This document shows, in pieces, positions 16,471 through 18,544 of a stretch of DNA of 64,000 nt. Each line of letters begins with the position of its first letter. The stretch's first letter is position 1. The translations under genes were made by a program, and so were the position numbers. Under the pieces are notes generated by a model that saw nothing but the letters and a program-made list of their open reading frames with translations, searched no databases and had not been told where the DNA came from. Source of the DNA: Auricularia sp. M13 (lineage: Eukaryota; Basidiomycota; Agaricomycetes; Auriculariales; Auriculariaceae); assembly GCA_037042915.1 (NCBI GenBank), contig CM073198.1, positions 3,162,001 through 3,226,000 on the forward strand, given 5' to 3'.

Positions 16471-18544
16471 ATGTCTGTCATGCCAGACGAGGAAGCCGAG
16501 GAGCTCGCGGCGTTCACGAAGGTGATCAACGCCTTTAGGCATTACGAGCGCGATGCGGTGAGCGAAACGACAGCGATATCGTGCGCTGCTGACTGGAATC
16601 GCTCGCAGTACAATGCGAACAACCGTCGCCGCAAGGACGCGTTCCGCATACCACTCGCAGACCGCGAGCTGCTTAACAAGCTGGGCTGGCACGACAAGCT
16701 CGCGGAGGTCGATCGCTGCATCGCGGCGAATGCGGTCTTCGTCAAGGACATTGTGGCGCAGACGCGCATATTCGGCGAGGCGGGCGAGACGATCGATGCG
16801 CCGTCCGACGGCGAGTACGACGACGACGACGACGACGACGAAGAAGACGAGGAGGAGGACGACAATGGTATTCCAAAGTCCATTGTATCTTCGCTTTACC
16901 CGTGGCTCATCCGTGCATTCTACAGGCCATCGCGAGCCGCATGTCCACGAGCATGTATCGGGGCACGACCACGGGCATGGCGGCCATGGTGTTCACGACC
17001 ACAGCGGCGGCCATGGTCTACACGAGCACAGCGGCGATCATGGTCTACACGACCACGGACATGGCGACCATGGTGTACACGACCACAGCAGCGGTCATTC
17101 GCACGACCGCGGAGGTCACTCGCACGACCATGGCGGCAGCGGCGGCGGCCGTTCGCATGATCATGGGAGCCACGGCAGCCATTCGCACGACCGAGGCCAC
17201 AGCGGCCATTCTCATGCCGCGCACGACCACGGGCACACGCACGGCGGCGCGCACAACCACTCGCATCCCCAATCGCCAACTGCAACCAATACCCAGGTGT
17301 CGCGATCGCACCGCGGTCCTTCGCCGCAGAGCAGGCCGAGCGAGCACGATATGGACAAAGTGCGCAGCACCATAAAGCAGTTCGTGCGCGACTGGAGTGC
17401 AGAGGTGTGTTGGGCCCAAGGGGCACCTTGACTGCCGCATGCTCATTCTGCGCAGGGCAAGCCCGAGAGGGATCAATGTTATAAGCCGATGCTCGATGCT
17501 CTTCTCGAGAGGTTCAAGGATGTATCTGAGGCCGACCGGTGAGTTGTTGTCCTGCGGCGGCGGCGTAGCTGAATTTTTTGAATCAGTGGCGACATTCGTG
17601 TGCTAATTCCTGGTGCTGGCCTCGCACGCCTGGCCTACGACGTTGCGCACTTAGGTGCGTGCTATGTTGTTTTTCGGGTTCGCACGCTGAGATTGGCATA
17701 CAGGCTTCACGTCTCAAGGGAACGAATTCAGTCATTACATGTTGCTGGCTTCGCATTTCATCTTGAACAGGTTCATTTAATGCCTTCACCTCGCATGCCA
17801 CTCCTGACAGGTGTTGGCGCAGGACGTCGAAGATAAATCAGCATACGATATACCCTTTTATCCACTCTTTCTCGAACTTGCGATCCAAGGCGGATCTCCT
17901 AAGGGCTGTCACTGTCCCAGATGTCATGCCGTCTGATATTCTGGGCCGAGATTTCTCCCTTGTGGCTGGTACGGTCAAGGTTTGCTTCTACAGTTCAAGC
18001 GCCCATTTATTTCCTCCAGGTGACTTCGAGGAGGTATATGGATCGAATGCCGACGAATCCGAGCCTCAGCATGGCCAATGGGATGCCATACTGACATGCT
18101 TCTTCATGGACACGGTAAGCGTCGTCTGTGTGGCTGCTTCATATTGACTTGACGTGACTCGACAGGCGAAGAACGTCGTCAACTACCTGCGTATCATCCA
18201 CAAGATCCTCAAGCCCGATGGCATCTGGATAAACCTTGGTAGGAAATCTCTACTCTGTTACCATTATTCTGAATCATTCGGGATAGGTCCACTGCTCTGG
18301 CATTTCGAGAACAATACTTCTAGCGACGTGTCTATTGAGTTGGATCTCGAAGAGCTGAAGAAGGTTATGGACATGGTCGGATTCGAGATCACTGTCTGTC
18401 ACCTTCATTCACAAAGTGCATCGGATGCTCACTGCCGCGCAGTCTCAGCGGTCAATCGATACAACATACGCTGCAACCATGGGTGGGATGCTATCATACA
18501 TGTACACAGCAGAGTTTTGGACAGCGAAGAAGACGACAGAGTGA
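16471..18544 (+). CDS. Carnosine N-methyltransferase-like protein (N2227/UPF0586) with His-rich insert
   Basis: SAM-dependent methyltransferase of the N2227-like family; characterised members methylate carnosine to anserine. Conserved blocks in order: [51 protein letters not shown]; the SAM loop [127 protein letters not shown]; and the end YMYTAEFWTAKKTTE, with a TGA at 18542-18544. About nine introns. Between the second and third blocks, where family members have a short linker, this protein has an acidic run (D7 and mixed D/E) and then 114 residues with 40 His, listed separately. The catalytic core looks intact. Whether a fungus supplies carnosine as substrate is unknown. Confidence 0.9.
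16979..17265 (+). repeat. Degenerate minisatellite encoding a His/Gly/Asp/Ser-rich segment
   Basis: Inside the methyltransferase gene. The left part (about 16979-17098) is built of 27-base units encoding variants of GHGVHDHSG (GHGLHEHSG, DHGLHDHGHG, DHGVHDHSSG). The right part degenerates into HSHD, HDHG and HGHTHG units. The whole His-rich stretch begins just after an intron at 16866-16922 and ends at AHNHSHPQSP. The composition resembles the metal-binding loops of zinc transporters. Such runs can expand or contract by slippage. Confidence 0.85.

Follow-up and report, generated by a model that had tools for sequence, protein, structure and literature searches.

The substrates of CARNMT1 include both carnosine and proteins, and mice require the enzyme for life (PMC10546973). 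PMC12275196 describes the human enzyme as a protein N1-histidine methyltransferase whose product, 1-methylhistidine, is found mostly in C3H zinc fingers, and the nematode CARNMT likewise methylates C3H zinc fingers. The gene is retained in organisms that lack carnosine, such as budding yeast (PMC12275196). An earlier note on the DNA studied here described the family as methylating a histidine dipeptide. The carnosine activity holds, but the premise is incomplete, as the histidines of protein C3H fingers are methylated too (PMC12275196, PMC10546973). Which substrates it chooses is, by the same account, a complex matter that sequence does not predict. For three of four human substrate peptides, F at position −2 is a near-absolute requirement, while the fourth accepts F or R. 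Of 26 peptides from outside zinc fingers, the enzyme methylated 10, two of them strongly, and acidic charge made at least the ZC3H15 peptide a poorer substrate (all from PMC12275196).

Histidine arrays attached to such enzymes may themselves be modified. His-tagged human CARNMT1 strongly auto-methylates, and the authors infer that the tag is "likely" the site (PMC12275196). The tag of METTL9, the HxH methyltransferase of animals, is likewise auto-methylated (PMC7873184). METTL9 is reported to be absent from fungi (PMC12269839, PMC7873184). Among its substrates, the zinc transporter SLC39A7 (ZIP7) provides a peptide, HGHSHAHGHGHTH, that binds Zn as measured by ITC, and six 1-methylhistidines weaken this binding (PMC7873184). 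Among the titles and abstract openings listed by our open-access literature searches, none describes a histidine-rich tract within the CARNMT1/N2227 family. Here we describe a fungal protein that, judged from its sequence, is an otherwise ordinary CARNMT1 enzyme carrying a real and unusual histidine-rich insert.

Gene Model and Enzyme Identity

The window, by which we mean the whole stretch of 64,000 nucleotides that was analyzed, encodes a CARNMT1 homologue on the plus strand at 16471–18544, stop included. The model was built by hand from the window sequence and comprises 10 exons (16471–16867, 16926–17404, 17456–17538, 17587–17654, 17704–17770, 17811–17968, 18020–18114, 18166–18238, 18287–18393 and 18443–18544) encoding 542 residues. 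All nine introns are of the GT..AG type and 40–58 nt long, the eight besides intron 1 measuring 40–51 nt. Such short introns, together with genome size and gene content, suggest a filamentous fungus, probably a basidiomycete, as the source. The first ATG is at 16471, and an in-frame stop precedes 16444. Exon 1 (16471–16867) encodes the N-terminal segment and, at its end, an acidic run. This segment resembles human HFWKIINAFRYYGT, although the match is weak (2.5 bits) and alone is not significant.

The Pfam family CARME (PF07942, carnosine N-methyltransferase) accounts for residues 267–540 with an E value of 2.1e-93. At 313 bits, the match is far above the family cut-off of 27 bits and covers model positions 4–267 of 268. 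Up to E 1, the protein has two Pfam matches, CARME and Methyltransf_12, the latter below its cut-off; DREV, the METTL9 profile, was not among them. Among solved structures, human CARNMT1 (5yf0, E 2.8e-77) matches best, followed by 5x62 (E 1.3e-37), a chain annotated as carnosine N-methyltransferase that we take to be yeast YNL092W. Both share the CARME domain with the fungal protein, the human enzyme over its whole length, and in a three-sequence alignment the identity over the aligned segment is 50% to human and 40% to yeast. Human E229, the Post I acidic residue involved in AdoMet binding, aligns with E350 of the fungal protein, in the motif GNEFS; the human residue numbers rest on a manually chosen offset of 47, which recovers E229. 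Residues D316, H347, Y396 and Y398 of human CARNMT1, presumably lining the substrate pocket, have identical partners here, and the fungal motifs FFMDT, WHFEN and SYMYT correspond to FFIDT, YHFEN and KYYYE in the human enzyme. In the human enzyme, the E229A substitution abolishes activity (PMC12275196). The catalytic domain of the fungal homologue looks intact.

A genome-wide profile search returned three neighboring CARME matches, all of them pieces of the window gene. Neither this search nor a genome-wide search with the tract protein found an allele or paralogue for comparison. The upstream neighbor, at 14986–16179 on the plus strand, contains a JAB/MPN domain (PF01398, E 2e-13), and its frame crosses a probable intron near 15750–15800; we take it to resemble the AMSH-type deubiquitinases. 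The downstream neighbor, at 18850–19782 on the minus strand, encodes WD40 repeats (PF00400, E 7.1e-80).

Position and Composition of the Histidine-Rich Tract

The tract occupies residues 133–246, encoded by 16867 and 16926–17266 on the plus strand, where 16867 is the first base of Gly133. It contains 40 His in 114 residues (35%), whereas the other 428 residues of the protein contain 12. It directly follows an Asp/Glu run, DDDDDDDEEDEEEDD (residues 117–131, 16819–16863), in which 15 of 15 residues are acidic, with a single Asn between the two. On the other side lies a Pro/Ser/Gln/Arg-rich tail of the insert (residues 247–273, 17267–17347), which is outside the His count, and then the start of a conserved block of the DMDK type (17348–17404), located in the same exon and the same frame as the tract. 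From the N-terminal segment to the next block, the fungal protein runs from residue 27 to 270 (243 residues), as opposed to 31 to 103 (72 residues) in human 5yf0_A, a spacer too small for the tract. Ahead of the DM.K block there are 273 residues here. The human chain has 106, and 5x62 has about 103, which is also too short to accommodate the tract; this region is thus about 170 residues longer in the fungal protein. The count on the spliced protein confirms what the earlier note had claimed, namely, a 114-residue tract with 40 His inside an N2227/CARNMT1 homologue, and its two further claims, that the tract comes right after an Asp/Glu run and that its site is a short spacer in the animal enzyme, are borne out as well.

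Such a histidine content is not due to chance, since the best count elsewhere is 15 His per 114 residues, both in a genome sample (20 segments of 10 kb on seven contigs, whose six frames yield 616 open stretches of 114 codons or more) and in the 64-kb window outside the tract (204 open stretches of at least 114 codons). Another open frame in the window, on the minus strand in the region of 42343, has 15 His in 114 codons; it may belong to a repeat-rich gene that is really read in a different frame.

The spacing of the histidines is also distinctive. The tract has 20 HxH motifs, compared with 13.6 ± 2.4 after shuffling (86 of 10,000 shuffles, 0.86%, reach 20), and no HH, compared with 13.7, although the residues of a repeat are not independent in either comparison. 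In 10 of the 20 HxH motifs, the middle residue is small (A, N, G, S or T), as in METTL9 substrates, which is a resemblance of motif only. Zinc-finger substrates have F or Y, or R in the case of U2AF1, at −2 from the target His. The tract does not reproduce this pattern: it contains no aromatic residue (F, Y or W), and R is found at −2 for 2 of the 40 His, neither of them in a C3H finger. The overall charge is net acidic, with 14 D/E and 4 K/R. The composition of the tract suggests that it is disordered.

Splicing and Reading Frame

Intron 1 of the hand-made model covers 16868–16925 (plus strand, 58 nt, GTATTC...CTACAG). The earlier note had called an intron at 16866–16922; the intron itself stands, but its borders were off by two to three bases. 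The open frame from 16562 to 17431 carries the tract and continues into the conserved block that aligns with human CARNMT1. The His frame proposed in that note is therefore secure, because a conserved family block lies in the same exon with no splice between it and the tract. Retention of intron 1 would leave the frame open as far as 17160, where a stop would cut off the methyltransferase domain.

Relatives

A scan of non-fungal genome contigs, based on the three-sequence alignment, gave 62 pattern matches and one relative (34% identical, designated L005). A scan of viral contigs gave 121 pattern matches and no relative. Ahead of the L005 block, MNVDKVRSTLRQFVREWSSE, no His-rich stretch was found in the three forward frames of 4600–5100. 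The human, yeast and L005 sequences are thus all without the tract, and none of them is a close relative of the fungal enzyme. The L005 gene (4600–6166) is on a contig labeled as a Verrucomicrobiaceae pond MAG. Stops interrupt its coding pieces in the manner of introns, and this CARNMT1-like gene is therefore more likely to come from a eukaryotic contaminant than from a bacterium.

Repeats and Origin of the Tract

Tandem Repeats Finder (TRF) detects a 27-nt tandem array at 16979–17098 (plus strand; 4.3 copies, 80% matches), with a unit of the GGHGVHDHS type and a 57-nt higher-order unit. Four more diverged copies of 37 nt, 65–76% identical to the reference, extend over 17086–17206, and a period-3 array underlies the Asp/Glu run (16806–16863, plus strand). 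The four aligned 27-nt copies encode GGHGVHDHS, GGHGLHEHS, GDHGLHDHG and GDHGVHDHS. The His columns are constant in all four, and the variable columns number 2, 1 and 4 at codon positions 1, 2 and 3; these seven columns are too few for a conclusion on selection. The earlier note had proposed a recent expansion. The repeat units support this in part, although copies that match at 80% suggest an expansion old enough to have drifted.

A search with the tract protein matched only itself, so no second place for the tract was found in the genome. We considered the ZIP zinc transporters as donors of the tract: at six ZIP loci, the matched exon and its flanks contain nothing tract-like, and the best 40-residue windows have 6–9 His in any of the six frames (L042–L047). 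A donor may still exist elsewhere in these genes or in the cation-efflux family, which has six matches in the genome. A DNA pattern for five alternating His occurs at 273 places genome-wide (149 + 124), as against 198 (110 + 88) for the reversed control, and the matches listed are mostly simple repeats, which makes this comparison of little weight. DNA patterns for His arrays are not rare in this genome.

Candidate Zinc-Finger Substrates

By analogy with the human and nematode enzymes, the main job of the fungal protein is probably the methylation of C3H zinc fingers in splicing and mRNA-turnover proteins. A zf-CCCH search gave at least 12 matches in the genome, and likely substrates of the U2AF1 and RNF113A types, known from human, are encoded. 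The U2AF1-type finger, GDRCSRKHIKPPFSQ (L029, from the zf-CCCH search), is identical at 12 of 15 positions to the human U2AF1 peptide GDRCSRLHNKPTFSQ; the Pro at +3 required by the U2AF1 peptide is present, and the preferred Asn at +1 is absent. The RNF113A-type finger begins with GDSCKFLHDR, in which 10 of 10 residues equal the human substrate peptide, and the corresponding pattern has two matches and none in controls. The DREV profile had no match genome-wide in an exon-by-exon search, by which a gene of small exons could be missed.

The RNF113A-type gene occurs twice (L031, G000:C12:351677-354724, and L032, G000:C9:560412-563459), the two copies being 99.9% identical over 3,049 bp and in opposite orientation. 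This pair would be either a retained haplotig of this assembly or a very recent duplication. The DNA pattern for U2AF1 had two matches against three in controls and was discarded, as the matches are not zinc fingers and lie inside a duplicated stretch. A further duplicated stretch (L038, G000:C5:4361253-4364269, and L039, G000:C13:31207-34223, the latter on a 221-kb contig) is 84–92% identical in pieces and resembles subterminal sequence or a repeat of the dispersed kind.

Discussion

We propose that the insert forms a linker of about 165 residues, probably disordered, in which an acidic run is followed by a His/Gly/Ser/Asp tract, joining the N-terminal segment to the Rossmann-like methyltransferase domain. 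The GHGVHDHSG-type unit is visible in the sequence, and the tract may have been built by its expansion and drift. Like the HxH peptides of zinc transporters, it would chelate Zn or other divalent metals. Two known systems are relevant here. In the His-rich loop of SLC39A7 and in other METTL9 HxH substrates, His likewise alternates with small residues (PMC7873184), but that array resides in a transporter, whereas the present one is found in a soluble methyltransferase. His-tagged recombinant CARNMT1 and METTL9 also carry a His array in cis with an N1-histidine methyltransferase, and both are reported to auto-methylate (PMC12275196 and PMC7873184). Their array, in contrast, is an artificial terminal HHHHHH, whereas here it is natural, internal and HxH-spaced, with no HH.

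The tract is a reasonable self-substrate, because CARNMT1 with a His-tag auto-methylates and 40 His are tethered to the enzyme here. Given that the methyltransferase next to them tolerates His peptides of various kinds, some of these histidines probably become methylated, either in cis or by the partner in a dimer. Metal binding and self-methylation, both raised in the earlier note, have these published parallels; for pH buffering and condensation, also raised there, we saw no evidence. Several points argue against self-methylation. Three of the four human substrate peptides need F at −2, but aromatic residues are absent from the tract and few of its histidines have R at that position; its net acidic charge would be unfavorable by analogy with the ZC3H15 peptide; and the human enzyme left most non-zinc-finger peptides unmethylated. 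Taking these considerations together, we give about even weight to a metal-binding disordered linker that is plausibly self-methylated. If methylation occurs, it is somewhat more likely to be incidental than to tune metal binding or activity.

The evidence can also be accounted for differently. It is conceivable that the tract is an artifact of the gene model, being intronic, alternatively spliced or in another frame. The exon structure is predicted, other frames of the tract DNA also give low-complexity protein, and the donor GTATTC is not the strongest form. However, one uninterrupted open frame joins the histidine tract to the conserved block within a single exon. Paired with the donor at 16868, three AG sites within 16900–17345 keep the frame, giving introns of 58 nt (to 16925), 247 nt (to 17114) and 328 nt (to 17195). 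An intron skipping most of the tract would thus be 247 or 328 nt long and use a weak acceptor, in a gene with introns of 40–58 nt, and we regard an artifact as very improbable. A more serious possibility, though one we would not favor, is near-neutral low-complexity expansion, in which slippage lengthened a tolerant disordered linker and the tract has no role, so that metal binding or methylation would be incidental. The tandem 27-nt and 57-nt units, the diverged 37-nt units adjoining the array, the period-3 Asp/Glu run next door, the position between folded parts and the absence of the tract from the human and yeast chains are all consistent with it. On the other hand, the His columns of the four aligned copies are unchanged while the variable columns are mostly third positions, an argument limited by there being only seven such columns. 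The HxH spacing also persists in the diverged units, which counts weakly against neutrality given the non-independence of repeats. This explanation and the self-methylated linker share part of their anatomy; what sets them apart is whether the histidines become methylated.

It has also to be considered whether the tract is a functional metal switch, that is, a zinc buffer or sensor that influences either the enzyme itself or the zinc fingers it methylates, with self-methylation setting the affinity; for example, uptake of Zn by the tract might free the target His in a finger. CARNMT1 substrates are zinc fingers, and HxH arrays bind Zn with an affinity that N1-methylation lowers (PMC7873184). 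The reported absence of METTL9 from fungi, together with the lack of a DREV match in our exon-wise search, also fits. However, regulation of this kind is conjectural, and the zinc affinity of a C3H peptide is the same after methylation by CARNMT1 (PMC10546973). We consider such a switch unlikely. Its fullest form is equally doubtful: in a METTL9-less fungus, CARNMT1 would N1-methylate its own HxH array and thereby set the amount of Zn held beside its substrates, coupling zinc status to splicing-factor methylation.

Fungi reportedly lack METTL9, and budding yeast lacks carnosine. A natural enzyme with 40 His in cis bears on the self-modification of an HxH array and on its effect on metal binding or activity. 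If the tract is the product of slippage only, it is a mere curiosity. If it is not methylated, it would set a limit on the substrate tolerance of the enzyme. If it is self-methylated, it would be a natural counterpart to the auto-methylation of His-tags, which is now seen as a nuisance.
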